Assembly: GCA_950295325.1 (NCBI GenBank) | Contig: OX485806.1 | Span: 21,266,001-21,330,000, forward strand | Direction of reading: 5' to 3' | DNA from: Polytrichum commune | Lineage: Eukaryota; Streptophyta; Polytrichopsida; Polytrichales; Polytrichaceae | Length of the DNA: 64,000 bases | Part shown: piece by piece, positions 16,490-36,717 of the stretch | Position numbering within the stretch: position 1 is the stretch's first letter | How the letters are laid out: each line of letters opens with the position of its first letter | The notes under the pieces: generated by a model | What the model was told of the DNA's origin: nothing | The model's database searches: none | The model's input: the letters and a program-made list of their open reading frames with translations, nothing else | Position numbers and translations under genes: made by a program

Positions 16490-19470
16490 AGAGTATATTT
16501 TAGAATTTGCAATAACCCCTCATCCTTTAAAGGCTAAAACATTCTACTTAAAATGGGATTGTTTACTTCAAATGAATAGACATGTAAAGCTTGTCCAAAA
16601 ATAGACAATGTTTAGTGCACAAAATTACCATGCATAGCTACATAAATTCTTTAATACCTCCAAGAGCCTTGTCATGTAAATTCATCAACGGTTAGTCTAT
16701 ATGCCTCACAAAGTGTTCATATCACAAAAAGATATATTGAGAGTGTTGGAAGACCATCTCAAGGGTCCACCCATTGTGGAGACCAAAAGCATGTGAATGG
16801 GTACCTCACCCCACCCCACTCCATATGTACATTTATTTTTGTTATGAAAAAATATATATACATGTGAAACCTTGTGCAAATTTTATGTGTTAAGACAACA
16901 CATTCATTATGTATTATCATTTGTATCCTACAATTCTTCAAAGCAAAATAATGAGACATTTCAATCCAAACTTTCCTTCAAATTTTGAAGGCCACTAATA
17001 TGAGTTTTTGTTGTTAAATAATTGAATTGCAAGTACTGAAATAATATCCGAAACATTGGACCTTAAAAATGATTATAGTCAATGTACATACGGGGGTAAA
17101 ACCATTATTTCACAGTCATGTGCTTTTGGTTTTCTACATTGAGTGGATCCCCCAAGAACAACATACAACATTGCATAACATTACTCAACTTAGCCATGGC
17201 CCACATAACACCATGGCTAAGCTGAGTAATGGCTATGTGGTAACTTCCCATCACTCTATGATGTTTACAATTCTAGGCAATCGTATCATGTTTATCATCC
17301 AACATAGTGGAGGACAAGCCATCGTTGGATGATGGGGTGTGGCTAATCCCCGGGCCTTATTACACTCATTTAGTGGCATGATTAAGGGTTATACATTAAT
17401 CTACATTTCCTCAATTGGCTCATTTGTGGATGAGCAAAGGAACCACACATCCATGTGTCATTGGGCATATCTTTGCATAGTTTCCATTTCCACATCATTT
17501 CCTAAGAGGTCTCAACCAATCACATTACGGCATATGGCACACTCAAATACCCCTTTTCTACATAATGAAAATATATCACATCAAATCTACTTGACAATAG
17601 AGTTATTCGAGAAGTTCATTAAAGAATGACCAAACAAGATGTTTAGTGCCTCTTTAAGGTCTTTTTTAAATAAAAAATAAAAAACAAACTCATCAGAGTT
17701 TGCATGTAAGAGCCCATTTTTGAAACATGGGTGGAATTATTTGGGTGCTTTTCTTCAATCCAAATAGCTTTTATAAGATTTGGTCCAAAGGCCCACCATC
17801 TTGAATGCCGACTCCGCTTATAGTCCACTGATTCTAAAATGGCAATTTTTTTTCATATTACCCAACCCCGTTTTAGCATGTTAATTTAAAAGTTAATATA
17901 CTTGGGTCACTTTATGCATAAGCATGGCATAAAGCTCTCAAACTCACCTTTTAGCCAACCCACAATGAGTTTTGTATGGAAGAAGTGACACCATGGCTAC
18001 AACGACATGTTATGCAAACCCTAAGACTACAAAGTTGTTGTCCTCATACACCTACACTAAGGACTCAACATTATATATCTACAATTAGCACATGAGGAAG
18101 TATTGGAAGAAAAATAACCAACAGTACAATCATAAGTAACAATTGCAAGCAAATACACTAGACAAAAAACCAACTATCTTCCACAACACTTGTTACTAAC
18201 GCAACAACACAACATACACACCAAGGCCGATCAAGGCTTACATGCTACGGCCAGGTTAGGGGATTGGGTGGCTAGAGGAGGCTCAAGTGGGGTAGGGGGT
18301 AGGCTAGGGACTAAGGAGGCTAGGATGGGGGCAAGGTTTCTAGAAGAATTCTTAGTTTAAAATTTGTAAATTCCATGGTTGTATGTTATAGTTATATATT
18401 GGGGGCATTCACGATTAGGGTACCACGAATGAGTGTCTAACATTTAAAGGACTAAAATAGATAACTTTATATAGTTGATGTGCTTAGATTTGTATTGTGG
18501 AGCATATTTTGAACCATACCTACATTTAATATTCCATAATGAGTACACCGACAAAGTTAATTTACAAGGAATAAAGTTATCTAAGATATCATTTTGATTC
18601 CTTAACGGACATTTATGGTTTTTGTTATAACTGTTGACCTTAGGATTAAGGAATGAAAAGGACAACAAAAATTAATTGAAATGATCCCAATTTTCTTCAT
18701 CACACTTGTCGTTCAATTGTGTACCAATAGAACCAAAAATGTATTGCATACCAATTGTATAACTTTACATATGACACCAAACATGGCCAACATTACACAA
18801 TAACATGGCTACATGAAATAGGAACGTTTAGAATTAGAATTGGACATAATAAAATATATATGTATGGACACATGACACTTACACCAAGGTACTAGGATGC
18901 AAAACATGAAATAATTCACCTCCAATGTACACTTCAATAATGAAATTGCCATTGATGTGGCCCAAACAAGTCCTATGACCTATCTATTCATTTAATAAAG
19001 GGTTTATCTATTATTATTAAATATTAAATATTAACTAATATATTTCTTGATAAATCCTATAAACTATCTACTTATTTATTTCAATTTTAATAATAATCAT
19101 AATAAATCATAATAAACGTCGAGATCCAATGCGACATAGTCCTTAATTCCTTTGTCCCAAAAGTAGTACCCCAATTATGAATGGCCCCTATTATAATATT
19201 TTATAGTGTAATTATAAGTAGGTTTGCTTTAATTTACCTTAGTCTGGATTAATATAGTTTAAAATTTTGAAGTATTGATGATAAATTTTACTTTTATATT
19301 GTCACTTCATCATACCCAATATGTGGGAGTGGTTCTCCACTTTTCTTTTCTTAATTTAGAAAATAATAATTTATCAAGCATTTTGTGACCTCCCTATCAT
19401 TTATGCATACCAGGTGCCTACCCACCATCTATACCACATGCACGTGCCAAGCAAACATATTGATGTGAGG
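16490..19470. other. A+T-rich intergenic region with one strong hairpin
   Basis: No gene is supported. An inverted repeat of 21 bp with one mismatch spans 17179-17199 and 17211-17231, separated by 11 bp and centred on CCATGG words. A G-rich stretch with repeated GGCTAGG words lies at about 18240-18330. Short open frames have no recognisable domain. Confidence 0.5.
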
Positions 19471-19562
19471 ATTTGGGCGAACCAACCCATACACTCATTC
19501 TTTGTTGGATGCCTAAACCCTTGCCTCCAAGGAACTAGTGTATGGGTTGGTTCGCCCCAGCC
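19471..19562. mobile_element. 92-bp microtransposon with 11-bp flanking duplication
   Basis: A perfect 21-bp inverted repeat (19475-19495 and 19537-19557, starting GGGCGAACCAACCC) brackets a 41-bp loop. The direct repeat TTGATGTGAGG flanks it exactly at 19460-19470 and 19563-19573. An 11-bp duplication is compatible with Mutator-like transposition (usually 9-11 bp). The element is far too small to code. It lies 112 bp left of the large retrotransposon. Confidence 0.7.
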
Positions 19563-19857
19563 TTGATGTGAGGTGGTATGAAGGCAAATAAAGGCCACAC
19601 TACACATTACACACTTGGTAAAACCAACTGTATCGGGTACACATCATATTGGTTTTCACGCCTTATTAATTTGTATTTCATATGCGGGATGGAGCGGATG
19701 GTTGTTCTTTCAAGGGCCGAGAGGCTGCCGGAGGTAAGGAACAGGAACTAGAGTCGTAGCGGCAACTTTCTGTTGCTCCTCGAAACTTCTCTCCTGGCCA
19801 CCCACCTCTCAGGTACCGAAAGGGTGCCGGAAGTGGCTCACCCAACCTTGCCACAAA

Positions 19858-19864
19858 GTATAAA
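19858..19864 (+). promoter_or_regulatory. TATA-like box in the retrotransposon leader
   Basis: TATAAAG is followed about 30-40 bp later by pyrimidine-rich sequence, as in plant core promoters. It lies about 170 bp inside the element, so transcription from it would lose the true 5' end; non-LTR elements normally start at their first base. The match may be chance. Confidence 0.25.
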
Positions 19865-19929
19865 GCTCCGCCCACTCCTGCAACCACTTCATCTTTTCTC
19901 CCCCGCAGCCTCTGGCAACACCACCAAGA

Positions 19930-20235
19930 AAACGCTGCTGCTGCTACAACCAGATCTCACCACCCTACTCCGAAGTGTCTGTCAAACATCACCAACGAAG
20001 GAACGCTGTTGCTGCTACTACAACCAGATCTCACCACCTCTACTCCGAGAAGTCGGTCAACACCATCAACGAAGGAAACGTTGTTGCTGCTGCAACCAGA
20101 TCTCATCACCTCTACTCCGAAGAGTCGGTCAACACCATCAAAGAAGGAAACGTTGCTACTGCTGCTGCAACCAAATCTCACCACCTCTACCCCGAAGAGC
20201 CGGACAACACCACCAACGAAGAAAAGTGTTTTTGC
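19930..20235. repeat. 5' leader tandem repeats, about 73-bp unit, four copies
   Basis: The word CAACCAGATCTCACCACC (with variants) recurs at about 19947, 20021, 20093 and 20168. Each is preceded by a CTGCTG-rich stretch and followed by TACTCCGAAGAGTCGGTCAA-like and CACCAACGAAGGAA-like words. The unit length is not a constant multiple of three, so the repeats are more likely leader or promoter monomers than protein repeats. Tandem monomers in the 5' UTR are known in several LINE families. Confidence 0.8.
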
Positions 20236-20939
20236 TGCTGAACTATGTAGACACTGCTGCTCCAAAGACCCTGCTGCTGTGATCACCCCAGATTCTCGAA
20301 GTATAGTTATATAGATTCTTGTAGACCTAGATCCCCCTTTCACAGATCCGACAGCGAAGACACTGTTGCGAAACCAACTCAGTCTACGGAGAGATGCGAC
20401 TGCCCCCACCGTTGTAATAAGTCACTGCCGCCGACGAAGTACGCTGCCATCAACGAAGACTGTCGCCGAACAACTCCGTAGACTCTGCTGCCGACGCCGC
20501 AGACCCTTGAAGTACACAGACTTGAGGAGAAACAGACACATACTCTGATTCCCTGTTAAACGCTGCTGCCGATATTAGATGCCCCCTTAGATTACGTTGC
20601 TAGAGATTAGCTGCTCCGACATCTAGACAACGCCTAGAGTAACACGCTGTTGCCGACAGTTGACGAAAATAAATTAGAATATAGCGCTGTTAGAACGCAT
20701 GAGAGCAGATGCCACACTGCGGAAAGGAAACGAGGGGACCGTTGCTAGACATCGCTACTCCGACGCTGCCAAACTGTAGTCACTGCGAAGAAGGATCGTG
20801 ATTAGCAAAGAACAATAGCGACTGTCCCCCCTGTCCAAAGAGGCAGTGACCAAGACCACCAAATTTCACTACATCAACCCCCAATACCCCTGCCCCGCTC
20901 ATAAAGCTACCTAGAGGAAGACCGCGGTGAGTTGCAGAC

Positions 20940-21125
20940 CGGTATAGAAGATCGGGGAAGAGTGTTGCCCAGGAGACCGTGAAGAGTGCTGCCCAGGAGA
21001 CCGAGAAGAGTACTACCGTGAAGAGTGTTGCCCAGCAAACCGTGGAGTGTGCTACCCAGTAAAACCAAGGACAGTTGTTGCCCAGACAACCGAAGAGAGT
21101 GTTGCCATGAAAACCGAGGAAACCT
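20940..21125. repeat. Second leader repeat block, short GTTGCCCAG-ACCG units
   Basis: Imperfect units of roughly 20-35 bp carry AGTGTTGCCCAGGAGACCG and shorter variants, repeated about six times with irregular spacing. The block lies between the 73-bp array and ORF1, inside the retrotransposon leader. The intervening 20236-20940 is GC-richer than the flanks, contains repeated CGCTGCTGCCGA words and shows no convincing ORF. Confidence 0.65.
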
Positions 21126-21495
21126 GCTGCCAGAAGAATCAAGGAGAATTCTGTGAAGGAGAGCTGCCGATACCTGCCGAGTCTGCTACCACCGCTGCCT
21201 ACCCAGGAGCTACTGGATCAACTTTTGGAGCTACTGGAGGCGCAACAGAAGTCGAGTTGCTGGACGATCACTGTGCGACAAAACCCCATCCCAGGGAAGA
21301 AAAGAAGGTGTTGGGACATCAAGGAGATTGAAGGCGAAGTGTTGTTGCTGGAGCTGTTGCTGACTGTCGTTTTGCTGCCCTTCATCCGCTTGGTAAGTTT
21401 ACACGTTAATTTGTTTTCTCATTATTTGCACATAGGCACACACATAGTCTTAGACACATCATAGCATTGATAGGTTTGTTAGGATAGTAAGCAAA

Positions 21496-23698
21496 ATGAA
21501 GGTTGCATATGCAACCTACCTTGTTATCATTATGTGGCTAGTACTAGTCACACCATACTGGATATACTCTCATAGTGTCAACTCTCACACCACATGGGAA
21601 TGCCTTACAAACTCTTGCTTTAAAAACACATATAAGAACGTCATAAATCCAAAGGTATGGTATAACAACCTTAATGTTCATATCATAAATGAATGTTCCA
21701 TTAGAAATAATGGATCCGTGGTAGTAACGGTAGATGTTTGTGCTTTTAGTTATACTTGCCTCAAATGCTTAGGAGATGTATGGAATGTTAGAGTTGTGAC
21801 AAATCATAATCTACATAAGAGCACTTACAACCAATTTGTAAATACTAATATGAAGATTCATATGAATAGGGAAAGGTGTTATCATAGGATGAATGCAAGT
21901 TATACTCATACTAGTACTCATATGATGTTAGAACATGCAAATCACTTCTTCTTTCACTCTCAATTCCTAGGAGGCCCACAACTTAATTTGTGGAAAGGAA
22001 TTAGAGGAAAGAAAATAAGAAGTATACCTCATTCAAAACTAAAGTACAAAACGTTTGTTTGCTTTGCTTATATCAGAATGGCAACCATCACTCCAACCTC
22101 ATCATCCCGTAAGTTGTTTGAAAATAAAAATATAGATTCTACAAGTGGAAAACGTCCAGTGCTTGCTGTGGTATTGTCAAGTCAAAAGAAGGTTAAAGGA
22201 ATAGCACCCACTGAGAGAACACGCCCCCCCCTATTGGCTTGGTTTTCAAACTATGAACACAATTGCAAAATTTGCCAACATGCCTCTCATTCAAACACCT
22301 TCTTTCACTGAGTTAGTCAAAAAAGGTATGTGTGAGTCTGAAGCACATGAAATGGTGGAGTCATCTCCCTCCTTTCCGTTCGTTGCCCAAGAAGAGTGGC
22401 ATTCTATACGAACGGATGGTAAGGAGGGAATGCACTACAATCTCACCCAGATTCCTTCGGATGTGGAAGTGGGTGACCATGGATTTGCTTTGGACTATCA
22501 CATATCTATCCATTTTGAAATTGAAAGAATAGAATTGGATAGAGATGTGATACTCAACTTAACAAAGGATAGCCTAAAAACAATGAGGATAGAGGTCGGG
22601 GAAGTCCTAGGAGAGCCCATAGCTGTCATTTGTTTTCATGGGACCAAAAGATGGAGTGGAATTATTAAACTCCACCTTAAAAACCCTGAAATGGATGGAT
22701 ATGGCCTTCTCTGTGGATTGAGACCTTTCATCCTCAAGCTTGGCCAATTTACACATGCTATAGGCAAAGTGTGTAAATCCTTTGATACCATTGCAATTGC
22801 ATTCATGCTCTCCGTCAAAGTCACAACCCCGTCAATCAAGGGTAAAGAATGGTATGATTTGTTTGTAGAAATAGTTGGGGATGGATTTCGACGAGGCCTT
22901 GACTTTGAAATAACGAATGTGCAAAAATCGGCGGATGCAGAGTTTGCTTAGATTAAAGCATCTTCTCCAGAGGAAGCCAAAAGAATTAAAGCACTCAAAC
23001 TTTCGTTTTTCAATGAAATAGTAGATGTAAACTTTGCAAGTAATGAAAAACTCTCAGAAGATGATAAAGCCCGAAAGAATGCACTCATTCTAATTGTCTG
23101 TAACCTCAATAAGGTAAAAACAACCATGCAAATCGAAGAAGGAATCCGAAAATGCATGGGAGAACTAAATGTTCTTGGTTTTTACTTTAGACTTGAGAAC
23201 GGGAAGCATACGGGCTCATGCAATGTCCAATGCCTCAACTCGTTTGTCTACAAGAAATTTGTTAAGAAAAATGAAAAAATATTTGGTAAATATGTTGAAT
23301 TTACCCCCCATCCAAAAAGTTTAGACGGAATAAATGCACCTAGTAAAGAAGAGCTAGTTAGACTTGGATTTTCAGACGTGAACACCGCACTTGCAAACAC
23401 CATCCAAGCTCTGGAGAATGGACCGCACCAAAACATCACCAACAAAGATCTCAACAAGATGGTAGAAGCAGCCGTAAAAAAAGGGATGGATGAAATACGA
23501 AAAGAAATGGTGAACCTTAAAGGTGAGATTGTGCAAAAGCCAAATGTTTATGCCGACCATGTGCAAGCGGAGTCAAACAAGGATTCCAAGCTCCAAATAC
23601 AACTCCTTCAAAGGCAAATGAAGATTACCTTGGATGCTATCGAAGCGGCTCATCCGGACATATCGGAAATTGAAAACAATATGGACTTGACAAACTAA
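21496..23698 (+). pseudogene. Retrotransposon ORF1, broken by one frameshift and one stop
   Basis: Frame 1 is open from ATG 21496 to about 22231. There an 8-C run (22224-22231) marks a +1 shift into frame 2, which runs to 23698 with one TAG at 22949-22951. Joined, it would be about 730 codons. The N terminus is hydrophobic (VAYATYLVIIMWLVLVTPYW), like a signal anchor, and is followed by a Cys-containing segment with two N-x-S sites. The middle is a Lys/Glu-rich soluble region. The C-terminal third contains a conserved-looking block (HPKSLDGINAPSKEELVRLG) and ends in a likely coiled coil. I recognise no nucleic-acid-binding motif. An alternative start is ATG 22078, just after an acceptor-like TATATCAG whose matching donor is GGTAAGTTT at 21393. 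Function is unknown; chaperone/RNA-binding is the usual ORF1 role. Confidence 0.7.
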
Positions 23699-23810
23699 TT
23701 TCGACAAACATCCCGGCGGCGTACAATTATAAATTACTTATAGTATATTTATATACTAAAAACAAAAACATAATTAAATTATTAATATATACTAAAAATA
23801 AAACCCTACC

Positions 23811-23832
23811 TATAGTATTCATGAATACTATA
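23811..23832. repeat. Perfect 22-bp palindrome
   Basis: The sequence is TATAGTATTC followed by AT and the exact reverse complement of the first ten bases. It lies between ORF1 and the second coding region of the retrotransposon, next to several TATACTAAAAA words. It could form a cruciform or RNA hairpin; its role is unknown. Confidence 0.8.
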
Positions 23833-23936
23833 ACATCAAAAACTCAGAAAGAAAACCCCCCCAACACCTCACAAAAATAAATATATTTACTCACAATACA
23901 ACAATATCCTATCCAATACAACAAAGTATACAATAC

Positions 23937-24262
23937 GGCCTCGGCCTACCGGCCTCGCCACAAAATAAAACTAACAAGATATATACACTACCACTCCCTC
24001 AACCCCATCATTAACACAATCACAAAGCCTACCCACCAACATACTAAACCTATACACTACCTCCCAAAAACTACACAAAAAATAATAATTGCCTTACCTA
24101 ATCTATTTATAAAAAGTAAATATAAACTACTCACCTTAAATAAACCTCACCTCAACATCAAACACCATCACAAACCCTATTTCAAACACCTACTAAACCC
24201 TCATTCAAAATACCAACCTCACCCAAAAGATACAATGGCCTCGGCCTACCGGCCTCGCCACA
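23937..24262 (+). repeat. Two GGCC-rich direct repeats exactly 300 bp apart
   Basis: GGCCTCGGCCTACCGGCCTC, extended by GCCACA, occurs at 23937 and again at 24237. The block stands out in a very A+C-rich, GC-poor context. The second copy includes the start codon region of the 2A-containing frame (ATG at 24235). The DNA between the copies is not itself duplicated. Confidence 0.8.
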
Positions 24263-24612
24263 CAAATAATAACACATACCACTTCATAAATAACTGGAGA
24301 CCTAATTCAATAACAAGCCAAAAATCTATAAAAAATACAAACTCACACTTCTCACCCAAACAAATAGAAAACATCATACCCGCTATACCTAACCTCTTTA
24401 CTACAACCAAGTTCACAATCATAATATATCTAAAAACAAACATGAAAAATCCAAAAACACTCCATTCCCACGGATACTACTTTATTAACAAACTAGAATT
24501 GCTAAAATGCGGGGACATAGAACCCAACCCCGGACCAATGTCTAACATCCTACATACACACCCTGCTACACACAAAAAAGAGCCAACATCTACTTCATTC
24601 CAAACACTATAA
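24235..24612 (+). CDS. 2A-bearing leader of the second retrotransposon ORF
   Basis: The frame from ATG 24235 encodes 125 residues to a stop at 24612. Residues 93-101 (24511-24537) are GDIEPNPGP, matching the 2A ribosome-skipping consensus D-V/I-E-x-N-P-G-P, preceded by a hydrophobic LELLKC helix as in functional 2A peptides. Skipping would fall between Gly (24532-24534) and Pro (24535-24537), and the next codon is ATG. In other non-LTR elements (for example trypanosome L1Tc and sea urchin elements) 2A peptides sit at the same N-terminal position. The stop at 24612 and loss of frame before 24756 suggest damage, and that the leader was once continuous with the endonuclease. Confidence 0.8.
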   Translation: MASAYRPRHTNNNTYHFINNWRPNSITSQKSIKNTNSHFSPKQIENIIPAIPNLFTTTKFTIIIYLKTNMKNPKTLHSHGYYFINKLELLKCGDIEPNPGPMSNILHTHPATHKKEPTSTSFQTL

Positions 24613-24755
24613 AACTACAACCTGAATACCAACACATAGCAAACACATTTGCCCCCATACTAAAAAACACACACCCACTACACCCTCAAGCAATAACCAC
24701 CTACCCGCATCTACATCAATATATCCAAACACAAAGGCAATCACCACTAACCCAT

Positions 24756-26430
24756 ATGCTATACGCTCTAATCATCACCATCCACCCCTCAATAGACACA
24801 TGCAATAACATACTAGCCCAACCCCAAAATTACCACTTTAATAACATATGGACGAACACATTGATTATCAGACTGGCCAACCTCACCAACCCCCCCGAAA
24901 GGCATATATCAACACCTCACCCCTACACAACTTTTGTAGAAAACAATCAAGATAAAATATACCCGAAAAATTCAATACACACAGAGATATATGAATTTAT
25001 CCACAACCAAGATACTACACCAACACCAATCACCCTTCAAAATAAATTTCCCTTCCTCCCAAATCAATTGATCACCGAAGCACTCCGATGCTTAGAAAAC
25101 ATCAACGAATATTCACACCTACCCCCACCCCCAGCCACTCCCATATCAACCCCAAGAATTAACACCGACACCTAGCACGAAACAAACATAAAAACATGGA
25201 ATGCGTCATCATTCAACACATCATTACCAAACCTACAAAGCCTAATAAACAACTCGCTAAACAATACAGCAATCATACATATCCAAGAAACCAAACTAAC
25301 TGCAAATAAATCTACAAAATACATACAAAACCTATTTCCGGAATTCAAACTCATTTTGAACAACACACATGCACTCACAAGATGCATACAACAAAGAATG
25401 CCTTATACCCTCGGAAGAGGAGGCTTACTCACACTTATCCACAATAAATATGCATTCCCTGGGAATATCACTAAAATTCCCACGCCAGTAAATATATCCC
25501 CATACCTACAAATAATTAAAATAAACAACCATCCACTAATACCTTGACTAATCATACACATGTACATGCCTACACACTTAGAAGACATATGCCTCATTCC
25601 ACACCTTAAGAACGAAATCACTAACGAAATCACTATACACCCCAATCACATGTATACATTATATGGGGACTTTAACCGAGATATCGCACTTAGAGGCAGA
25701 CAAAATAACAACATTAACACCCCTCCACAAGAAGAAGATTACCAATGGAAAATTTTCACCGCATCACTCAACCTAGAATATATCCCAACTAACACTAGCA
25801 TCTCCAGACAACGAGGCTATAATTACACATCAACAAGTCTAATAGATGGATTCTACATTCACTCACCAGACAACAACAAATTCATTTCTACCACAAACAC
25901 AAACATGAATCTAAACTCAGACCATTATCCAGTTGTACTACATATCCCCCACAATACCCTTATAGCCAAATCTCCACCCCCCACAAACACGTCACCAACT
26001 AGAATACTAAACCCAATACCACCAGAAAACATCGAAAAATTCAACATAACATTCTTTGAAGAAAACTCTGCACAAATAAAAGCCCTTACCACCCTACTCA
26101 AAAACCACCAACACTTAAGCCCGGATCAATGGGCGGAAGCCTGTACAACATTCGACCACATTGCATACAAAATTTCAAAAACAATTGAAGAAACTTGTAA
26201 AGCAGATCCACTACCCAACCTTACGAACAGAACATCACAACAAGGTGGGTTTTTGCCACGCAAACTTGCGAGAAAATAGAAAAGACACCTCAATACATAT
26301 CACCTCATCAGGAAAATCATATACATTGCACAACACGATCCACTCTGGCAAGCACACCCATCCTGAACGATATACGAAACCACCAACACACAAACATCCC
26401 ACACCCACCTGCTACAACGGCACCTACTAC
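24756..26430 (+). pseudogene. APE-type endonuclease domain
   Basis: The frame starting at 24756 continues in phase through stops at 25173 (TAG), 25545 (TGA), 26277 (TAG) and about 26364 (TGA). The order of motifs is that of LINE apurinic/apyrimidinic-like endonucleases: HIQETK (catalytic Glu at 25287-25289), RGGLLTLI, a LYGDFNRD block (Asp/Asn of the GDFN motif) near 25665, a SLIDGFYI block near 25836 and NSDHYPVVLHI (catalytic SDH) near 25914. This domain nicks target DNA to prime reverse transcription. The catalytic residues look intact; only the frame is broken. It is followed by a Lys-rich linker before the reverse transcriptase. Confidence 0.85.
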
Positions 26431-26545
26431 TGAATGGATTGATGCCATAGCAACCATCGCAAAAAATGCAAATAAAGAAGCCAGGAAAATCACCACAAAA
26501 TACACCAAAGACTCCATTCTAAAGGCCGTATCAAAATACCATCAA

Positions 26546-28620
26546 ATGTATGAAAAAACCCCCAAAAGGATAAATCGAAAAGTCTTCAAGAATACTGAAA
26601 CCTCACCCCTGGACTCCATCATTGATAAACAAAATAATATATTAACTAACCCAGAAGACATCGCAGCAGAAATATACACGCAACAATCTATCAGTAACCG
26701 TCCTACAGTTCTCACATGCCAATATCAAAATACACACCCATTACACTGCACATGTGGAGTCCGGCAATATCCATGGCATGATTTAGACGGATACATCATT
26801 GACAAACGAGGAGAACCCCAAACCCCCCTACACACATATTTTGACCAAGAAATATACGACTTTTGTCTTAAAAACTTAAGTAATAACAAAGCCCCAGACC
26901 CAGACAAAATACCCAATTCAATTCTAAAAAACATGCCTCCACGCTTCCATAAATTACTCTTCTTATTTTTTAAACATTGTTATAAACAAAAACAAATCCC
27001 TGCATCATGAAAAACCAGTCTGACAGTTTTACTATATAAAAAAGGTAACCCATCACAACTAACAAACCATAGACCTATTGCATTAGCTAACACCACATAT
27101 AAATTCTACACGAGTACATTAACTTCTATCCTATCAGCGTATGAAGAAAAGTACCAAATATTACACGATAGTCAAGAAGGGTTTACAGCAGAGAGAAGCA
27201 CTTCTAGACAAATCCAATTATTAATCGCAGCGCTTGAAGACGCAAGACTCATGAACCAAGATATATATATATATATATCCTTTACATTGACTTCAAAAAC
27301 GCCTTCGGCTCCATTGATCACGCCAGACTTTTAGCCATAATGAAAGATCTGGGATATCCCACTGATTCCATAAATCTCATAAGAAACATATATTCACAAT
27401 CCTCAACAATATTCACTAGTGAACACTTCGGTAAAACCTTACCAATCCCCATTCAAAGAGGTACAATACAAGGTGATACCCTTAGCCCATATCTATTTAT
27501 CATATTCCTAGAACCCCTCCTCAGATGGCTACAACAAGGGAATAATGGATACACTTTTGGTACATCTAAAATTAAAATTTCATCAGCAACATATGCAGAT
27601 GACCTAGCAGCAATCGCCAATAAACTAGAGACACTACAAACACAACTCAACAAACTAGACAAATTCTGCGAATGGGCAGGAATGGATCTTGGAATACCCA
27701 AGTGCGCAATAACTGGATGCCCAAACAAATCCAAACTTCATCCTACAACCTTTAAAGCCCTAATCCAATCTACCAATATCAACTACAGAAACCAACCTAT
27801 ACCGGTCTTAAACCAATATCAACCATACACGTATCTAGGAATAAATCTTGCACCATCACTCAAATGGAAAACACAAATAAATACCACTACAGCTAAAGTA
27901 ATAAAACAGTGTCAAACCCTTGTAACATGCCCAGCTACTATGAAACAAAAAATAAACATGGCAGATACAGTCATACGTGCTGGAATAGCATACAACTTCT
28001 ACGCAGTGCCATACTCCATACCAGCTATTAAAAACTCGATAAAAAAATCATAGCACTTCATAAAACGATATGCGGAATACCCAAATGCACATCTAACATC
28101 GTTACACAACTCCCACACAATCTATTCGGAATCGAAGCATTCTCACTACAAAATGCCTATTTAAGATGCATTGGAGAACAACTACAAAACGCCCTCAATG
28201 ATAAAGGTAGAATTGAGAAAATATATGCTGGTCTACTTCAATTCATACTCGCCAAATATGGGGGCTCTAAGGAAATCACCCGCATTAAATACCACCAATG
28301 TGTTAGATCACCTATCACTAGAACATTATTCTTGCTCAAACATAAAGCCGGAGTCCACCTAAAAAGTACAATAAACAATTTCCTACTAACCCCATCCCCA
28401 CTTGAAACTGCATGGATGCAGGAAGCACAAATGCTTCATGGCCTAAATCCCAACACCTCACTTAAATTACTACACAAACTACTTGTACAAAATATAATCA
28501 CACTAGACCAAATTACCGTGCCTAATGGTACCACTCTAATGAACCCGGACGAATTCAAAATCTACCACTTCACTCCCTCTAAACTTATCAAAAGCGCACT
28601 TAACATAGCTAATCAATTAT
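26546..28620 (+). pseudogene. Reverse transcriptase and thumb domain
   Basis: RT blocks appear in order across three frames: NKAPDPDKIPNSILKNMPP (about 26887), KGNPSQLTNHRPIAL, QEGFTAERSTSRQ, YIDFKNAFGSIDHARLL (catalytic Asp, about 27288), QRGTIQGDTLSPYLF (about 27457), ATYADDLAAIA (catalytic YADD at 27592-27603) and CPATMKQKINM. Breaks are a Trp-to-TGA at 27008-27010, a frameshift at an expanded TA run (about 27260-27278) and another near 28045-28053. After that the thumb continues in the third frame (GIEAFSLQNAYLRCIGEQLQ). A CTCGVRQYPWHD segment lies upstream. The sequence is close to the usual length and the catalytic Asps are intact. Confidence 0.88.
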
Positions 28621-28906
28621 TTTGCCACCCCCTTGTAATCAATGCCCCCTACCATGCCAACAACACCATCCACCAAGATCCCTAAAAAATAAATATATAA
28701 TAAGACACCACAATATCCTACCACACCCACCAACCGCCCCCGTACACCCCCCTAACCTCCCCATCCCCCCTCTACCCCCTCCTCCCAACAACATGCTTAA
28801 AGATCCCCGACAATTCCCCATACACAAAATAATCGATCATAAACAAAAACAATCTAATGACCATAACGGAATAAAAATAACAGTCACGTCGTACTTATGT
28901 CAATAG
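28610..28906 (+). pseudogene. Cys/His-rich knuckle and Pro-rich linker
   Basis: Immediately after the thumb, allowing one frameshift at about 28622-28640, the sequence reads LFCHP / PCNQCPLPCQQHHPP. That gives a CxxxCxxCxxxC-like cluster followed by two His, compatible with a zinc-binding knuckle. A Pro-rich stretch with PIPPLPPPPNN (about 28690-28800) follows and probably forms a flexible linker. No named family was recognised. Confidence 0.5.
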
Positions 28907-28959
28907 ACTACAACAAATAACAACACATATAACAAATGACGAACTCAAAGGGACCTATA

Positions 28960-29836
28960 CCCCTACTGTGAAGCCAACACATGTAATCACAACACAGACC
29001 TACTTATTCATTACTACAAAGAAAGACAACACAAACATTTTTCAAACATAATTAATACCTACTTCTCCACAGAACAACATAGAGACACAAGATACGTCAC
29101 ACCAACCACAATAATTCCACTAGCACATATCTCTATTAATGAATGCAACCCAGAAAATGACATCGAAACAAACTCTGATACCATCCAAACACAATTCGAT
29201 GTCGCTCACATATATGAAGACAATGGCCGACACCTCATTACCATCCCGAAAGCTAGACTAACATGGCTATGGAAACAATACCAATTGGCAAAAAACAACA
29301 CACACGGTCTAGAACCATCTACCCAATCGTTCGAAACTGAAATTGTTTGGTTATACCAAAGGTACAAATACCGTATCCCAAAAAATGACCCACTCAAATG
29401 AGCCCAATATACAATACCAACCCAAATATTAGATCTCTTGATTACAACATTCAATATTAACCACTCATATTTTTCATCCCCAGTTACATGCCCCACATAA
29501 TTCACCCAATTCTACTCACCATTCTCGCGAGACATAATATTTGGATCCCTAGGTAAAGCGTTTGACCATAAATGGCAAGGAATCGATTACGCACACCCTC
29601 ATAATACAAGAGATCTACAACAAGCTATTCACTGGGCGCGCATAGCGGCCCAAAATGATCCTTATACAATCACTATACTTATATCTCCGGATACTAATTG
29701 GTACCAAAACTCCAACCCACACACAGACCCATTTCTAGACACACACGTCATTGCCCATTTCGCCGCTGATACGATCACGTATGAGGAACCCACAATACCC
29801 CCCGAGCTCAATATCACAAGAAAAGAACCATCTACC
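28960..29836 (+). pseudogene. Segment resembling a PCIF1-like adenine-N6 methyltransferase
   Basis: In the frame of the downstream RNase H, broken by TGA at 29399 and TAA at 29498, a helical region (ARLTWLWKQYQL, ETEIVWLYQRYKYRIPKNDP) leads into SYFSSPVTCPT and FYSPFSRDIIFGSLGKAFD. HKWQGIDYAHPHNTRD and QAIHWARIAAQNDPYTITIL follow, then a SPDTNWY block. The order is that of the catalytic core of PCIF1-like adenosine methyltransferases: YFxS, FGSxG, an NPPF/NPEY-type loop, then an alternating hydrophobic strand ending in a P-x-W/WY. Here the loop reads AHPHN in place of NPPF, so activity is doubtful. Assignment rests on pattern recognition alone. Alternatives are a structural domain of unknown function or a different Rossmann-fold enzyme. 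Confidence 0.4.
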
Positions 29837-31564
29837 ATGCAAATATTTTGTATCCATCACCAAAACAATAACATAGGCACCTACGAACAAATGAAATTAA
29901 TAAACGACACAGCAAATAACCTCCAAATACTACAAAGTCACACACAAACTGCACCACCCACCCCTCCAAACATCACCGTTAACCCTAGTAAAAAATGGGC
30001 CAAATCAAACTACCCAAATACAATCCCACACAATAATACCCCTACCCCACAACTTCCAAACTACTACACTAATCTACCGCTAAAATTCCACCCCCAATTC
30101 AGCTACTACACGGATGGTTCCTTTATAAAACCTAAAGAAATTGCCCCTGGGGAATGGAGAAGAGAAAGAGCTGGATACGGTATCTACAGCCCCAAAGGCT
30201 TAAATATCGCCAAAAGACTCCATGGGCATCAAAACATACTACGCGCAAAAATGATGGCTATACACAAAACACTAAGAATCATCAATACACAATTTCCTAA
30301 TGAACCCGCATTCATATTCACAGACAGTCTAAACGTACTATACTTACTCAACACACAAATCAAACACCCCACTCTCCATAATAACCACCCAGACCAAACC
30401 ACATTCAACTCCATGGTAAAAATCCTTCAAAACCGTACACAACCAATCACACTATACAAAGTTAGAGCACATGTTAACATTGACGGTAATGAAAAAGCAG
30501 ATAAACTAGCAAAAGAAGGGTTAGAATTAGAACATAGAATTGCCATCCACCCATACGAACATGCCCACGCCACCCCGTACTATTATAAAAAAGACGTCTG
30601 GGCCTCGATGGCAGACGTCCCAGATAAAGGCCCAGTAAGATTCCTAGAAAAACAAATTAAAAAATACGATAGGGAAACCAATATAGCAATCATGGCCACA
30701 CAAACCCCCAACACGTGTAAATGGACAGAAAATATAGACATAGACAAAGAAATGTCAAACGAATTCTGGACAAATCCCTCAATCACCGACAAACAAAAAT
30801 CATGTCTTATTAAATTCCGCACAGGAACATACATGGATAATGCTAGGAAACAAATATTCTTTGGCCACCAAAGATACCCCTCTATTACGTGCCCCATATG
30901 CAATTCAAACGAACCAGACACCTGGCTACATGTACTACTTAAATGTAAACAACAACATATACACTCACTTAGAGTTAAAAGACATAACAAAGCAGTCGGA
31001 GAAATTAGGAAGCTCCTAATCTCGTCCGAAAAATCCCGATGCTTTACTCTCATGAATGCCGGTACCTTCAATAATAATCCCCAAGAAAACACTGTCCCAA
31101 ACTGGCTACTCCCCTGCACATGTAACACACAAAGATGTCACTGCAACGCAAGATTTCGACCTGATATACTTTGCGTTAAAGGGTTACCGTATCAAAATGA
31201 CCCTCCCATTGACATTGACCCTAACCTTACCATACAATTTATTGAATTCACATATTGCAACGATAGATTCTCCCCAAAAACAATAGAAGCAAAAATCAAC
31301 AAATACAAACCACTAATTGATAGTATCGCTTCCAGAGGATGGAAAATCGAACCACTTATTGTCATCACAGCCGGGGCCCGAGCTACGACCCATATTCCAT
31401 CTATGAAAATACTAGAGAACAACCTCAGAATACCCATGGTTACCATCAAAAATACCTTTAAAAACATTAATACCATTGCAATACAATATGCCATGTCCAT
31501 CCTCCTTCATAAAAGGAGGATCGAAAACCACCAACCGCTCCCCCAAAATTTAGACCCTCCATAA
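29501..31564 (+). CDS. RNase H, CCHC knuckle and restriction-like endonuclease region
   Basis: The frame is open without a stop from 29501 to 31564; the first ATG is at 29837 (575 residues). RNase H: YYTDGSF (Asp at 30113), RAKMMAI (30248, where the family has Glu), IFTDSLN (Asp at 30323), DGNEKAD (last Asp at 30500). One of four catalytic acids is therefore replaced. Downstream come CPICNSNEPDTWLHVLLKC, a C-x2-C-x9-H-x4-C knuckle from 30890, and VKRHNKAV. Next is RFRPDILCV (Pro-Asp at 31160-31165), FIEFTY (Glu at 31244), then KINKYKPL. That matches the CCHC plus PD-(D/E)XK endonuclease module at the C terminus of R2-like elements. RNase H removes template RNA, and the endonuclease cuts target DNA. 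This is the longest intact frame in the element. Confidence 0.85.
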   Translation, partial: FTQFYSPFSRDIIFGSLGKAFDHKWQGIDYAHPHNTRDLQQAIHWARIAAQNDPYTITILISPDTNWYQNSNPHTDPFLDTHVIAHFAADTITYEEPTIPPELNITRKEPSTMQIFCIHHQNNNIGTYEQMKLINDTANNLQILQSHTQTAPPTPPNITVNPSKKWAKSNYPNTIPHNNTPTPQLPNYYTNLPLKFHPQFSYYTDGSFIKPKEIAPGEWRRERAGYGIYSPKGLNIAKRLHGHQNILRAKMMAIHKTLRIINTQFPNEPAFIFTDSLNVLYLLNTQIKHPTLHNNHPDQTTFNSMVKILQNRTQPITLYKVRAHVNIDGNEKADKLAKEGLELEHRIAIHPYEHAHATPYYYKKDVWASMADVPDKGPVRFLEKQIKKYDRETNIAIMATQTPNTCKWTENIDIDKEMSNEFWTNPSITDKQKSCLIKFRTGTYMDNARKQIFFGHQRYPSITCPICNSNEPDTWLHVLLKCKQQHIHSLRVKRHNKAVGEIRKLLISSEKSRCFTLMNAGTFNNNPQENTVPNWLLPCTCNTQRCHCNARFRPDILCVKGLPYQNDPPIDIDPNLTIQFIEFTYCNDRFSPKTIEAKINKYKPLIDSIASRGWKIEPLIVITAGARATTHIPSMKILENNLRIPMVTIKNTFKNINTIAIQYAMSILLHKRRIENHQPLPQNLDPP
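31499..31521 (+). promoter_or_regulatory. 9-bp hairpin at the end of the second ORF
   Basis: ATCCTCCTT and AAGGAGGAT form a perfect stem around a CATAA loop. The 5' arm follows GTCC, giving the word GTCCATCCTC that recurs at the 3' UTR hairpin (31875-31884). It lies within the last codons of the frame. A structural role in RT recognition is inference. Confidence 0.6.
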
Positions 31565-31667
31565 AACTCAAAAACTTATATAATGTTTAATAACTATATA
31601 CAGCTCAGGATGAGGGATTGGTGCCGGTTGGTTGGTACAAATTTCCTGCCTTTTACTCATTGCAGCA

Positions 31668-31776
31668 CCAAGTCATGTGTTACACATTAGGCGATCAAAC
31701 GGACCCAACAGGAATCGAACCCGGACCGTCTTAACCCAAACATCCTCACACAACCAACCGAGGAATCATGACTTGG
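31668..31776 (-). ncRNA. tRNA-like sequence antisense to the retrotransposon 3' UTR
   Basis: A 10-bp inverted repeat (CCAAGTCATG at 31668-31677, CATGACTTGG at 31767-31776) closes a minus-strand sequence. It holds a perfect B-box GGTTCGATTCC (31711-31721), a D-arm-like TCCTC-GGTTGGTTGTGT-GAGGA and a T-arm. A- and B-like boxes are about 30 bp apart, as in Pol III promoters. The anticodon arm is weak and the whole is longer than a tRNA, so it is probably a tRNA-derived module (SINE-like) rather than a functional tRNA. Confidence 0.45.
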
Positions 31777-31878
31777 CGTACACCCTTACAACAAAACCAC
31801 TAGCTATACTTAAAAGGCATACACCCCCGTGGGCCATGATGGGCCCGTGTTATTTGTTCCCTGGCTACTATAGTGTCC

Positions 31879-31894
31879 ATCCTCGAAAGAGGAT
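31879..31894 (+). promoter_or_regulatory. GNRA-type tetraloop hairpin in the 3' UTR
   Basis: ATCCTC-GAAA-GAGGAT is a perfect 6-bp stem with a GAAA tetraloop. CTACT and AGTAG further out extend the stem across a 9-nt bulge. A second hairpin lies at 31970-31990 (CCGG/CCGG and CCC/GGG stems with one mismatch), just before the TCTA tail. Such structures are candidates for recognition by the element's reverse transcriptase. Confidence 0.6.
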
Positions 31895-31991
31895 AGTAGT
31901 TTTGTCCCAGCTTCCCCATGTCATGTGGACATCGGGTTGTTGGCATTACGAACGGACACTCTATTCACGCCGGCCCCTCAAAGGGACCGGA

Positions 31992-32012
31992 GTTTCTATC
32001 TATCTATCTATT
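31992..32012 (+). repeat. TCTA microsatellite tail of the retrotransposon
   Basis: TTTCTATCTATCTATCTATT directly precedes and overlaps the 3' copy of the 12-bp target-site duplication. Short simple repeats at the 3' end are common in L2/CR1-like and other LINE clades instead of poly(A). Confidence 0.75.
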
Positions 32013-32442
32013 TCATATGCACAAGTGCTATGGGTTGGGATGACACATACCCAAGCTAGTATAACACACATAAACATAAAAACTGACACAAGCATATTCA
32101 TATGTATTTAGTTGTTGGGATCTAATGCTTCATAATAGTTTGTGTATTGCACCAATCGAATATATTTAGTGAAACTCTATATAAGGTTCATTTCACAAGT
32201 TGGCAAGATTGGACAAAAATATAAATGGAGAATGGTAAATAGAGATTGGACAAAAATATAAATAGAGAATGATTCGGGCATATTACAGAGTGTCCCTAAA
32301 CAAAAATGCCGTATACGATTATGGCTCTCCAACAAGGAGTCAATCAATGCATTCGCCTATAAGAGCCATGTTCACGAAATTCTGAAAGAGTCTCCACAAA
32401 AGCTAAGCCACACTGATCAATTCACCACGGTTTGTTCACCTA

Positions 32443-32535
32443 GCTTGGAGTCAATGTGGAGGTTTGAATGAAGGACATTCCATATTGGTTCATTGGGTAT
32501 CAAACTCATTTTGGCATGCCACATTGACTCCAAGC
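32443..32535. mobile_element. Third copy of the CATGCTTGGAG MITE family
   Basis: GCTTGGAGTCAATGTGG at 32443-32459 is repeated in exact inverted orientation at 32519-32535. The interior shares CATATTGGTTCATTGGGTATC and CTCATTTTGGCATGCCA words with the copies in the transporter introns. Sequence similarity appears to continue outside the perfect arms, so the true ends may be wider. Confidence 0.65.
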
Positions 32536-32769
32536 ATGCACCCAAAACTTACCAAACATGGAAAATAATGCATGCGAAACAACCAACTCCCTACTAAAAC
32601 TCCAGTTGAGTTAATGGATAACTCTAATATCCTTAAAAAAAAGGGGGCATGCAATTTCGCATGTAGAGGCCCCCTTAAGCTTAAACAAAGAGAGAGAGAA
32701 AAAAACCCAAGTGTTTCAACATTCTAAGACCATCTGCATTAATTGATAGATAAGGCCTGCATGTGTTTT

Positions 32770-32789
32770 GGGGGGGGGGGGGGGGGGGG
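32770..32789 (+). repeat. Poly(G) run of 20
   Basis: Twenty uninterrupted G residues. Such runs are rare in plant DNA, prone to sequencing error and able to form a quadruplex. The region 32540-33736 otherwise contains no gene I can support; its right part may hold the 3' UTR of the glycosyltransferase. Confidence 0.8.
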
Positions 32790-33736
32790 TTAATTATGTC
32801 CGTAAAGGGCATGCATTGAGGGTGAGAGCACAAGAGGTGGTTCTTCCGACTAACAAAGATGTTCATGAACCAAAGCAATTGTTAGATGACGTCAACACCA
32901 AATTTAGAAATGGTTTTTGTCCATTTTGTTCCAAATCAATGCTCTTACCAGACCTCCTAAACTAATCACCCTTATTTTGCAGAGCTATATCACCACGAAG
33001 AAGAATGGCGCACCATGTTCAATGCAAATTTCTTTGCAAATCCATGCCAATTTCATAAAAAGCAAACTATCGACCACCAAACCAAGGATGATTTCGCGCA
33101 ACGTTCATATGCCTAGTTTCTATGAACTATGTTAATTAGTTCCCGTACAACACAGAAGAAGGTGTGTGATTGTGATTTCACTCACGTTGTAAGCATTTAC
33201 ACTTCCATGAACACCCAAAAACAAGGGAGCCCCTTTTGGAACCAGTGTTATCAACAAGAAAGCTGATAGATTGTCAGATGATGGTTAGAAATGTGGGCAG
33301 AGCTCATGATTGCCCACACACTTAATGGATACAGCAGCACAGTTGTGTTGTTTGGTTACTTTATCTGAATTGTTGCAGTCATACCTTCATATCATTTCGA
33401 ATGATATCGGAGGAAATGGGATTTTGCGTAACATTCTTAAGACAATATCACGCTGAATCTTCTACAAGGAATCGAAGCGCACTAAGGAGAATAAAATTGC
33501 ACCTTCCAACATCTAAAACTGAGTTTGAGACCACAACTTGAGCTCCTTTCAAGATATATGTTAGGTTCAGTGATCTCTTCATGCAATGGTTATGAAACAA
33601 ATCAAGCTCACTCACTTCACTCATGGTAGGGCCACAATGTGTCAAGGTAGTATTGGCTTACGAATGTTTTTTTATACCATGAACGACTTTTAACACAGAA
33701 ACCAAGAGTTTGATTCTACTGAAAATCTTTGATTGA

Positions 33737-36717
33737 TTACTCAAGCGATTGGGGTGCTGACAGTACAATTGCTTGTGCTCTTTTATACATGTCCACGGCA
33801 AAAGCGGCCAAATTGTTGTGCGAAGATCCACCGTGCTCAATAGCTCTCCTAGCAGCCTCTTTCCATCTTTGAGCTGCAATTCTGAGCTCTGAGTCTTGGG
33901 ACGCCAACATCCTCACCTTCTTTGCCACCTCATGCCTCTCAATGGACAGGTTAGCACGCCTCTCAAATTCCAAACCCATCTTCCAAACCTCCACAACATA
34001 CCTGTTGTTCATGGCTTGATCTGCAAAAAAAGGACAACCCAACATCGGAACCCCCATGGAGACACTCTCCATAAGTGAGTTCCAACCACAATGTGTTACG
34101 AAGCCGGTCGTGGATGTGTGCCCTAAAACCTTGAGCTGAGGAGCCCACGACACGACAAGGGCCCGATCCTTTGTTCGCTCCTCAAAGCCTGAAGGTATAC
34201 CTTGGGCTCCGCCGTCCACAAGGTTGGGCCGGATGACCAGTAAGAATGGCACTTGAGAATCTTCGAGTCCGAGGACAAACTCCTCGAGCATGTCCGGAGT
34301 CATAATAGTGGTGCTCCCAAATGAAATGTATACGACCGAATTCGGTTTTTGCTTGTCGAGCCAGCCAATGCAATCCACCTCTTCAGGCAATAAACTACTT
34401 GTTCCATCACCTTCATCACGGGAGGCTCCGTTGGGAATGATGGGAGCAACAACAAGTGGCCCAACGGTGAGCAAGTTCACTCTCGCGTGATCTTGTTGGA
34501 ATGGTTGGAGGACAGAGTCTTCCAGCTCGCTAAATGTGTTAATGAGAGACCAATCCCGGCTATGGAGGCTCTCCATTTGTTTAGTTGTAAAAAGCTGGAC
34601 CGAGGAACTAGACAAATCCGATGTCACAAGAACCGAGTGAAGTTCTCCAACTCTTATGGGATGCAAACCGGGAACACACGTCACTTTGCGTGCACACGCA
34701 ACTTTAGTTTGTTCGCCCGAATTTGCAATGCTTTGCAAAGTTTGGACGGACCCGGTAAGCGAGATTGGCGTTGGTATAGGTAGCAATCCTTCATTGATAA
34801 GCTTTTGGAAATGAAACTTGATGACAAATGACATGGCGCTTTGAGTGGAGAAGCCCACACTTGGAATACCCAAACGAATCGATGTATAGTGAGCTTCCAG
34901 AAAATTGAAGTCAGATATGATGCACGTGATCGGCACAGAATCCGAGCAGATTTTTTGTATGAAACTTTGCAGAAGGGGTCCTAGAGACATGAGCGAAAAC
35001 ATAAGAGTCATGAGTTCCTGGGTATTGTAGTATTCATCTGGCATGCCGTCCTCAATATCCACAAAGTGAATGTCATCTTCTGCACTCCTGTCCCAACATT
35101 TCATTGAGCAAGATGTTTCTGTTAGTATGTAAAGGCACCTCACTCAATCCTTCCTTTTATTTCCTACAATTCAACTCTTAATTTCACTTCGACCAAGCTG
35201 CGAAACCTAAGGCAGCCTTATGTGCTCACTCTCCTTATTCAGACATTGAGCGAAATATGGCAAACGCTTGTAGTTAAGAATAAACACCAGAAAGACGCAT
35301 GTTACGATGATATTGGACTGTGTGCTCAAAATTGTAGATCCATAGTCATTAAAACATTCAGGAGGGCTCATGCATTCACTCAGAGAGACGGAGAATCTTC
35401 ACTTGGACCATTTATAACTTTTGCATCTCAATTTCGATTCTGAAGGCCGATCTTCACGATACGCAATTGCTAACCGGATGAGACAATTCACATCCTGATC
35501 CTAACGTCCAAATTTGTCTGTGGAGTTGGAAGTGCCCACAGTAGGGTCACGAAGGTACCTTAACAACGCAAATTGCCTCGTACTGAAAACCATCCTCCCT
35601 CTTTCTTGTATTCCTAAGTACTAACAGGTCGCGCTAAGTGATCGTGGTCAACAGGACTACCAATAGTTCCTACATGAGTTGAAGTTCATAGGGAAGTTCA
35701 TGCGATTTTGAGGTAAAGGTGGGTTTCCTATTCTCCAGACTACCAGGTACTCTATCAAAATCTAAAATAGGGTTTCTCTGTGGTTCATCAGACGGGGTTT
35801 TACAAGTAGACAAATCATAGCAGTACATTCATCTCAAAATGCAAGTGACCACCGCTTAATGTTGAGTCAGTGCTGATACATACCCTTCCAAGTTCATTAT
35901 CTTCTTAGTGCTAACTCCACCTTTAACTAATGATTGAATGAACACTGATTCAACTCGTACTTCAATATTGTGGGCCTTGCAACTACATATTTGTCGAAAC
36001 AAGAGATTAAATCACAACCCTGTGTTTGGTAGGCATTGTTTCTAAGAAACATTCAAAACCTAAGAATTATTCTATTTGCGCTGGGAGGCAACATCCTAGG
36101 ATACCAAGAATGATGTTATGTGGATGGTAGTTGTTTAAGAATCCAAGCAATATTTTACACTAGAGAATGTGAGAGTGATAATGCGTGAACAACATACGTG
36201 CAAAGCCGACCCAAGCGCTTGTGAGTATGCAAAGTGTTGGCAATGTATAAAGATCCAATTGAAGATGTGCGTCCCAAATGGGATAATTATTAGGCTGACC
36301 TAAGATTTTTCCATCTGAGCAGGGAGACAACATCCTAGTCTACTCAAGACTGTTCTGAGGAGAATTAGTTCCAACGGCGTGTTAAGGGGATGGTGCGGGA
36401 ACAGCAATGGATATTAATTCATATGCACGGTGCAACGGGTCGGCACGAGCCCTAAACTGGTCCAGTACATAATCAGAATGCCGATGTTTGACTCGCGATT
36501 ACAGTGCAATATTTCACACTAGAAAATCTGAGAGTGATGGAGACTGAGAAGCTTACGTGTCAAGGCGACCCAAGCGCTTGTGAGTATGCGAAGTGTTGGC
36601 GATGGTGACTTTGAAACCATGTGCACCACTCAGACACTGGGCCAGCTGCACGAATGGCCGGACATGGCCTTGGACCGGCAACGGAAACAGCAAGGCATGC
36701 GGCCGTGGTGGACTCAT
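33737..36717 (-). CDS. Family-1 UDP-glycosyltransferase
   Basis: The model has two exons, 36557-36717 and 33737-35087, joined at GTAAGC/ACAG in matching phase. They total 1512 nt, 503 residues, the normal size for plant UGTs. The enzyme transfers a sugar from a UDP-sugar to small acceptors in the cytosol. The N terminus reads MSPPRPHALLFPLPVQGHVR, with the catalytic His in QGHVRP (His18). The partner Asp lies in CIISDF. The C-terminal PSPG box is complete: WAPQLKVLGH, FVTHCGWNSLMESVSMGVPM, then PFFADQ. The final Asp-Gln suggests UDP-glucose as donor (family knowledge). Ser/Gly in ISFGS contacts phosphate. The acceptor cannot be deduced. Exon 1 supplies only 53 codons. Intron 1 (1.47 kb) contains a relic copy of the exon 1 end. 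The start is the only ATG that places MSPPRP ahead of the conserved N-terminal strand. Confidence 0.92.
36193..36245 (-). pseudogene. Relic copy of the 3' end of glycosyltransferase exon 1
   Basis: The minus strand reads IANTLHTHKRLGRL followed by a donor-like CACGTATG. It parallels the true exon end (IANTSHTHKRLGRL, donor at 36556) at 36552-36604, offset by about 359 bp. Sequence further into the intron is duplicated too: compare about 36137-36190 with 36489-36548. The fragment sits in intron 1. Confidence 0.75.

Follow-up and report, generated by a model that had tools for sequence, protein, structure and literature searches.

A Probable Dualen/RandI-Type Retrotransposon With a PCIF1-Like Domain and a 2A Motif in the Moss Polytrichum commune

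The window analyzed here, a stretch of 64,000 nucleotides of Polytrichum commune (assembly GCA_950295325.1, contig OX485806.1, forward-strand positions 21,266,001 to 21,330,000), carries a 12,323-bp non-long terminal repeat (non-LTR) retrotransposon that is probably a land-plant member of the Dualen/RandI type. Its second open reading frame (ORF2) places an APE-type endonuclease before a reverse transcriptase (RT) and, at the C-terminus, a putative restriction-like endonuclease (RLE), accompanied by RNase H; a microsatellite-type tail ends the element. Two components, a PCIF1-like domain and a 2A/StopGo motif, we read as new relative to Dualen/RandI as described; both were overlooked in the original prediction, which a model had made from the letters of this stretch.

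A Single Insertion in a Large Family

The ends of the element are fixed by an empty paralogous site on contig C3, in which the 5′ flank (to 19685) and the 3′ flank (from 32021) are joined by one TATTTCATATGC; this site is 90.8% identical over 424 aligned bases of the 5′ flank and 98.7% over 226 of the 3′ flank. The sequence between the flanks is therefore a 12,323-bp insertion (19686–32008) with a 12-bp target-site duplication, and the original prediction, which had drawn one unit between two such repeats, was exact to the base. That the repeat lies at the element ends is upheld both by the empty site and by the duplications of other copies.

Copy searches covered the 408-Mb assembly (64 contigs, seven of 42–78 Mb; the window lies on C4). 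The ORF2 C-terminus was scored at 65 places including the window, at 92–100% identity, among 6,812 candidates; for the ORF1 C-terminus, 150 places were scored of 582 candidates, at 38–100% identity. ORF2 is open over 2,625 codons at three of the 65 places, and the two that were read (L013 and L014) are 99.5% identical across 9,086 bp, which therefore points to recent activity. Stops and frameshifts in both frames disable the window copy, in which ORF2 aligns as six pieces holding nine stops and ORF1 is broken too. ORF1, which has no significant Pfam match, lies 5′ of ORF2 in the other copies read. ORF2 also has a pronounced strand bias: in 2-kb steps from 24001 to 32000, GC skew runs from -0.60 to -0.29 and AT skew from +0.25 to +0.34, a bias not seen in ORF1.

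A second lineage is represented by L091 (C5), whose unbroken 2,372-codon ORF2 is 43% identical and agrees in its parts and in their order; identity is 62% in the RT, 47% in the RLE-like domain, 45% in the APE, and 43% in both the PCIF1-like and RNase H domains. A further relative, L099 (C1:40948585), has an open frame of 2,919 codons with AHPPN at the methyltransferase motif. At L023 and L024 the ORF1 C-terminus is 38–39% identical to that of the window and the ORF2 pieces downstream of the leader share about 77–89% identity with L013, a pattern in the sequences that suggests ORF1 exchange or very fast change. L015 (C4:38512806) has an ORF1 68% identical to the window's and almost no ORF2 match downstream; either it is a truncated copy or its ORF1 serves something else. 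L015 was left out of the alignments, and in L016 the part following the RT is missing.

Domains of ORF2

In the unbroken L013 ORF2, the 2A core stands at residue 277, followed by the APE (about 500–770), the RT (about 1061–1480), the PCIF1-like domain (about 1861–2060), RNase H (about 2135–2285), a zinc motif (from 2402), and the RLE-like domain (about 2477–2615). Pfam finds RVT_1 (1.1e-29), RNase_H (7.3e-13), and PCIF1_WW (3.6e-10) in the whole frame, bearing out the RT and RNase H that had been predicted; no APE match appears in that scan at E up to 1. Scanned alone (E up to 0.1), the APE domains match Exo_endo_phos_2 in 10 of 16 members (best 1e-9) and Exo_endo_phos in 8 of 16 (best 1.3e-6), and the L091 domain scores above cut-off with Exo_endo_phos_2 (9.7e-8). 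In a fold search with a model of moderate quality (mean predicted local distance difference test score, pLDDT, 68.3), ExoIII, TDP2, and the L1 endonuclease were matched with E values between 5e-9 and 3e-8 and template modeling (TM) scores of about 0.5. The motifs map in the window to 25284–25295 (QETK), 25665–25676 (GDFN), and 25917–25925 (SDH), and across the aligned copies QETK is found in 11/11 covering rows, GDFN in 12/12, and SDH in 10/11; L024 has a stop at QETK. Thus the proposed APE with its three motifs is confirmed by mapping, by Pfam, and by fold search, and it lies N-terminal to the RT, as in Dualen/RandI.

At the C-terminus, a CxxC-H-C zinc motif precedes the RLE-like domain, its C, C, H, and C being invariant in 9/9 rows. 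The same nine-row alignment has D, E, and K in every row and the P before D in 8/9; the stretch from RPD to K maps to 31157–31303 in the window. With L091 as reference, 7/7 rows, 42–47% identical to it, keep P, D, E, and K. A structural search with model residues 563–777 placed R2 at ranks 1, 2, 4, 6, and 8 with Z 6.9–7.3, middling values from a weak model with 998 chains aligned. We provisionally take this domain to be a restriction-like endonuclease on the strength of its invariant core, its position, and the R2-led structural match. Of the predicted C-terminal pair, then, the zinc motif and a D-E-K core stood, whereas the nuclease identity of the domain is an interpretation that no profile match backs.

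The ratio of nonsynonymous to synonymous substitution rates (dN/dS) was estimated, roughly, for eleven copy pairs, L013 and the window copy being one of them. Across the remaining ten it is 0.09–0.20 for the APE (one pair saturated), 0.05–0.14 for the RLE-like domain (saturated in two, lacking data in one, and with L019–L020 covering part of the domain), 0.05–0.19 for the PCIF1-like domain, and 0.06–0.10 for the RT. It is looser elsewhere: up to 0.68 in a linker and 0.21–0.53 in the leader that precedes the 2A motif. Between L013 and the window copy, the ratios are 0.40 (APE), 0.06 (RLE-like), and 0.59 (PCIF1-like), at low dS.

The PCIF1_WW profile (PF12237) matches 9 of 13 aligned members and exceeds its cut-off at each of the 150 genome places scored among 697 candidates, a set in which element copies and host genes are not separated; the L091 domain alone scores 31.0 bits, just under the cut-off of 31.1. 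Residues 34–254 of the model used for the RLE-like domain resemble in structure the cap-specific adenosine methyltransferases of human and zebrafish (Z 5.8–7.2), and also RlmJ (Z up to 6.3). Does the domain still methylate? The catalytic motif of PCIF1 methyltransferases is NPPF. At the position that we equate with it, by our own reading and not by alignment, the 14 copies read have AHPHN, AHPNN, AHPHT, AHPPN, or AFPTD (AHPH in the window) and none has NPPF, so catalysis has probably been lost.

A 2013 report by Odon is said, judging by its title, to place 2A/StopGo sequences in APE-type LINEs (long interspersed nuclear elements). Here, 9 of 11 aligned rows carry DIExNPGP without change, the two departures being L022, with H at position 14, and L016, with H at position 16; the second lineage, L091, likewise has H at position 14. 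The element has the D(V/I)ExNPGP core in common with the 2A/StopGo of viruses, and examples with H at positions 14 and 16, the two kinds of departure seen here, are described as active in the accessible portion of PMC12846837. That portion records no natural use of 2A by plant viruses; the motif described here is in a land plant.

Placement of the Reverse Transcriptase

Searched against PDB, the whole L013 ORF2 matches R2 at 105–67 bits and no L1 at E up to 1. The L091 RT scores 135, 125, and 124 bits with R2 chains that we take to be from turtle and bird, 89 and 85 bits with R2 chains presumably from silkworm, and 76–73 bits with L1, which we assume to be human; a control RT from a host L1 gives the opposite order (human L1 170–165, R2 63–51). 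An unrooted tree of 11 RTs resolves the dual elements, L1, and R2 as one clade each (support 100/100, 100/98, and 97/96), with long branches for silkworm R2, human L1, and one host L1. Since dual elements, L1, and R2 make up the tree, with I, CR1, RTE, and Dualen outside its scope, the placement reads as follows: compared with L1 and R2, the RT sequence falls outside L1 and closer to R2. Membership of an APE-only clade, which would have counted against the original prediction, is thus excluded for L1, in a comparison that did not extend to I, CR1, or RTE. Scans of viral and genome contig collections found no RT relatives for placement.

Target Sites and the 3′ End

Duplications were found in 18 of 25 copy pairs: 12 bp in ten, 13 bp in five, 11 bp in two, and 9 bp plus a mismatch in one. 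Eleven pairs gave a duplication at first; seven of the 14 others were re-examined with other tails, and all seven proved positive (C6:11695 with the mismatch). L075–L078, which are 5′ ends, and L063 were left out of these counts, and where the tail stops and the duplication starts can be told only to within 1–3 bases. The first base of the duplication is T in 17/18 (P ~1.7e-8 at 30% T), which thus indicates a bottom-strand nick after A. This A is preceded by a pyrimidine in 15/18 sites and never followed by G (mostly YA^H), and the 18 sites read share no single target sequence. Taken together, the 11–13-bp lengths and the nearly constant T suggest two cuts at a fixed spacing.

Most copies read end in (TCTA)n or (TTC)n, and the L056 and L060 families in a less regular CT-rich run; the tail is a microsatellite and not poly(A), another feature of Dualen/RandI. 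Upstream of it lies a conserved hairpin. A pattern search of 32 sequences was positive in 13 true 3′ ends, nine of which were aligned, with the structure drawn by eye; matches to the pattern in L015, L016, and L051 are by chance. In the nine aligned sequences, pairing holds in 93.8% of cells, and both partners have changed in four of nine pairs. All 500 shuffles fall below the observed values for paired cells and covariation score; both-side changes were reached by 44/500, and pair types by 500/500.

Within the 3′ untranslated region (UTR), 31601–31778 resembles, by eye, a reversed tRNA, and appears to be inverted in family L017; ARAGORN detected no tRNA anywhere in the window, and Rfam over 18000–34000 gave one sub-threshold SAM-II match (E 0.76).

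Relation to Known Elements

According to the accessible portions of the papers cited here, the combination of an APE with a PD-(D/E)XK-like nuclease marks Dualen/RandI (PMC3636483, PMC4640811), which also has RNase H (PMC4640811). The moss element is alike in its APE, in its RNase H, in the type of its 3′ tail, the tails of RandI being (ATT)n and (CTATTT)n (PMC3747384), and probably in an RLE. From the Dualen/RandI elements of green algae, with which it is compared by description only, it differs in its land-plant host, its PCIF1-like domain, and its 2A motif. As to hosts, the accessible text of a 2015 paper lists Dualen/RandI for green algae only (PMC4438587), and that of a 2013 paper has RandI among green algae and not flowering plants (PMC3747384); Chlamydomonas relatives (PMC8226300) and, for LINE/Dualen, cryptophytes (PMC12747079) are also reported. 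Among the papers listed in a literature search conducted mostly without subscription papers, there was no report of Dualen/RandI in land plants and none that ties PCIF1 to retrotransposons.

The closest other kinds each share some of these parts. The R2 group has the best PDB match to the RT, the C-terminal zinc motif, and, probably in common with the moss element, the PD-(D/E)XK-type domain, but RLE is its sole endonuclease, whereas the moss element adds an APE, RNase H, the PCIF1-like domain, and ORF1, and lacks one shared target sequence. Plant L1 elements are similar in having an APE before the RT, two ORFs, and a plant host; the moss element differs from them in an RT that falls outside L1, in its microsatellite tail, and in its RLE-like domain. 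The PCIF1/CAPAM cap methyltransferase shares PF12237 and a middling fold match with the domain of the element, which differs in having no NPPF at the equated place.

Weighing the Alternatives

Several observations weigh against these assignments. The RLE-like domain has no Pfam match, and a PDB sequence-profile search returned one unrelated match (E 1.2) and, with L091 added, none to E 10, so the significant match to restriction-like endonucleases that the original prediction looked for failed to appear. The 785-residue model is poor (mean pLDDT 48.9; 10-residue means of 40–86 over residues 591–760), Foldseek matches its RLE-like region to R2 at E 0.0077, bunyavirus PD-(D/E)XK nucleases reach Z 7.1, close to the values of R2, and unrelated chains (channel proteins) reach Z 5.4. 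For the PCIF1-like domain, the PDB profile match to PCIF1 is weak (E 0.94), and the weight for its identity lies on Pfam because the methyltransferase-matching part of the model has 10-residue means of about 32–66. The APE scores of L013 itself (2.2e-4 and 0.0039) fall under the curated Pfam cut-offs. Seven of the 25 copy pairs lack a duplication, six of them without a located 3′ end and C5:35137 with a tail and no repeat of at least 9 bp. Finally, the dN/dS ratios are rough because dS is often above 1 or saturated.

If the C-terminal domain leaves no trace in profile searches while the APE is clearly recognized, could the element be an ordinary APE LINE, in which the APE cuts both strands and the C-terminal domain survives as a degenerate remnant or as one that does no more than bind DNA? 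We think this improbable: 7/7 rows keep P, D, E, and K at identities down to 42% to the reference, the domain is constrained as strongly as the APE, and the 11–13-bp duplications are narrower than those of APE-only L1 elements. Still less likely is an active methyltransferase working on the RNA of the element; the Pfam match and the matches to the human and zebrafish cap enzymes (Z 5.8–7.2) speak for it, but the motifs found where NPPF would be expected speak against. As for two nested elements, the thought arises from the extreme strand bias of ORF2 alone (GC skew -0.038 at 22–24 kb versus -0.603 at 24–26 kb), but ORF1 lies directly 5′ of ORF2 in the other copies read and the empty site on C3 attests to one insertion; this composite was ruled out, and we leave it practically no chance.

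How, then, might a dual-nuclease element insert? The RT would recognize the 3′ hairpin and tail; one nuclease would nick the bottom strand after the A that faces the leading T of the duplication; this A, as the primer end, would pair with the tail and prime reverse transcription; and the other nuclease would cut the top strand about 12 bp away. We give roughly even chances to the arrangement in which the APE makes the priming nick and the RLE the second cut, as judged from our analysis. The reverse, with the RLE priming as in R2 and the APE cutting second, is possible but distinctly less probable: an RT closer to R2 than to L1 and a nick after A in 17/18 sites, mostly YA^H and unlike the TTTT^AA preference of L1, argue for it, yet in APE LINEs the APE does the priming, and the RLE of R2 sits close behind the RT, whereas some 900 residues separate the two here. 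That one nuclease makes both cuts seems unlikely. The PCIF1-like domain may bind RNA, the cap, or the transcription machinery, and the 2A motif probably frees an N-terminal leader from the nuclease-RT protein.

Feature Coordinates and Neighborhood

The features are listed in Table 1. In the 5′ flank, 19475–19557 is an 83-bp palindromic unit resembling a miniature inverted-repeat transposable element, with 30-nt arms that are 90% complementary; it is partly common to the empty site. On the other side, a UDP-glycosyltransferase gene (33740–35143, minus strand; Pfam UDPGT 2.9e-23) adjoins the element. Elsewhere in the assembly, the PsaB of contig C8 gives its highest scores, 1,701–1,705 bits, with the PDB chains 8htu, 6l35, and 7ksq, presumably from Physcomitrium, and 1,667 bits with the next of the 60 matches listed out of 84, as is likely for a moss.

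Table 1. Parts of the retrotransposon and its flanking duplications, in window coordinates.
Feature	Position	Strand	Basis or remark
Target-site duplication, 5′ copy (TATTTCATATGC)	19674..19685	.	Single copy in empty paralogous site
5′ UTR	19686..21495	+	72-bp tandem repeats (19919–20240), 24-bp tandem repeats (20957–21120); related 5′ ends elsewhere
ORF1	21496..23698	+	Broken here; 747-codon frame in other copies; first-ATG start is a guess
ORF2 region	23674..31564	+	Broken here; other copies have a frame of 2,625 codons
2A/StopGo motif LLKCGDIEPNPGP	24490..24537	+	Motif match
APE-type endonuclease domain (QETK, GDFN, SDH)	25179..25991	+	Pfam; fold match
Reverse transcriptase (YADD 27592–27603)	26861..28127	+	Pfam RVT_1; R2 best match; tree
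PCIF1-like methyltransferase-type domain	29267..29866	+	Pfam PF12237; structural match from low-confidence model
RNase H domain	30089..30541	+	Pfam; PDB profile
CxxC-H-C zinc motif	30890..30946	+	C, C, H, C invariant in 9/9 rows
Putative PD-(D/E)XK-type (R2-like) nuclease domain, C-terminal	31115..31531	+	Invariant core, structural match; no profile match
3′ UTR with conserved terminal hairpin	31565..31994	+	Hairpin alignment
(TCTA)n 3′ tail	31995..32008	+	Tail sequence, empty site
Target-site duplication, 3′ copy	32009..32020	.	Empty paralogous site

Implications

A broader picture can be sketched tentatively, as a reading less likely than not to hold: dual-nuclease LINEs of land plants would form an old, recently active clade in which the two nucleases divide the work, each cutting one strand, with about 12 bp between the cuts. 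This clade would have acquired a pseudo-methyltransferase of the PCIF1 type together with a StopGo peptide that functions, perhaps the first case of natural StopGo use among the mobile elements of plants. With a family this large and recent in a moss, the range of Dualen/RandI would reach into land plants. Provided that both nucleases are active, mutation of each in turn would tell which one primes insertion. The presence of both a PCIF1-like domain and a StopGo motif suggests an unexpected control of the RNA or protein of the element.

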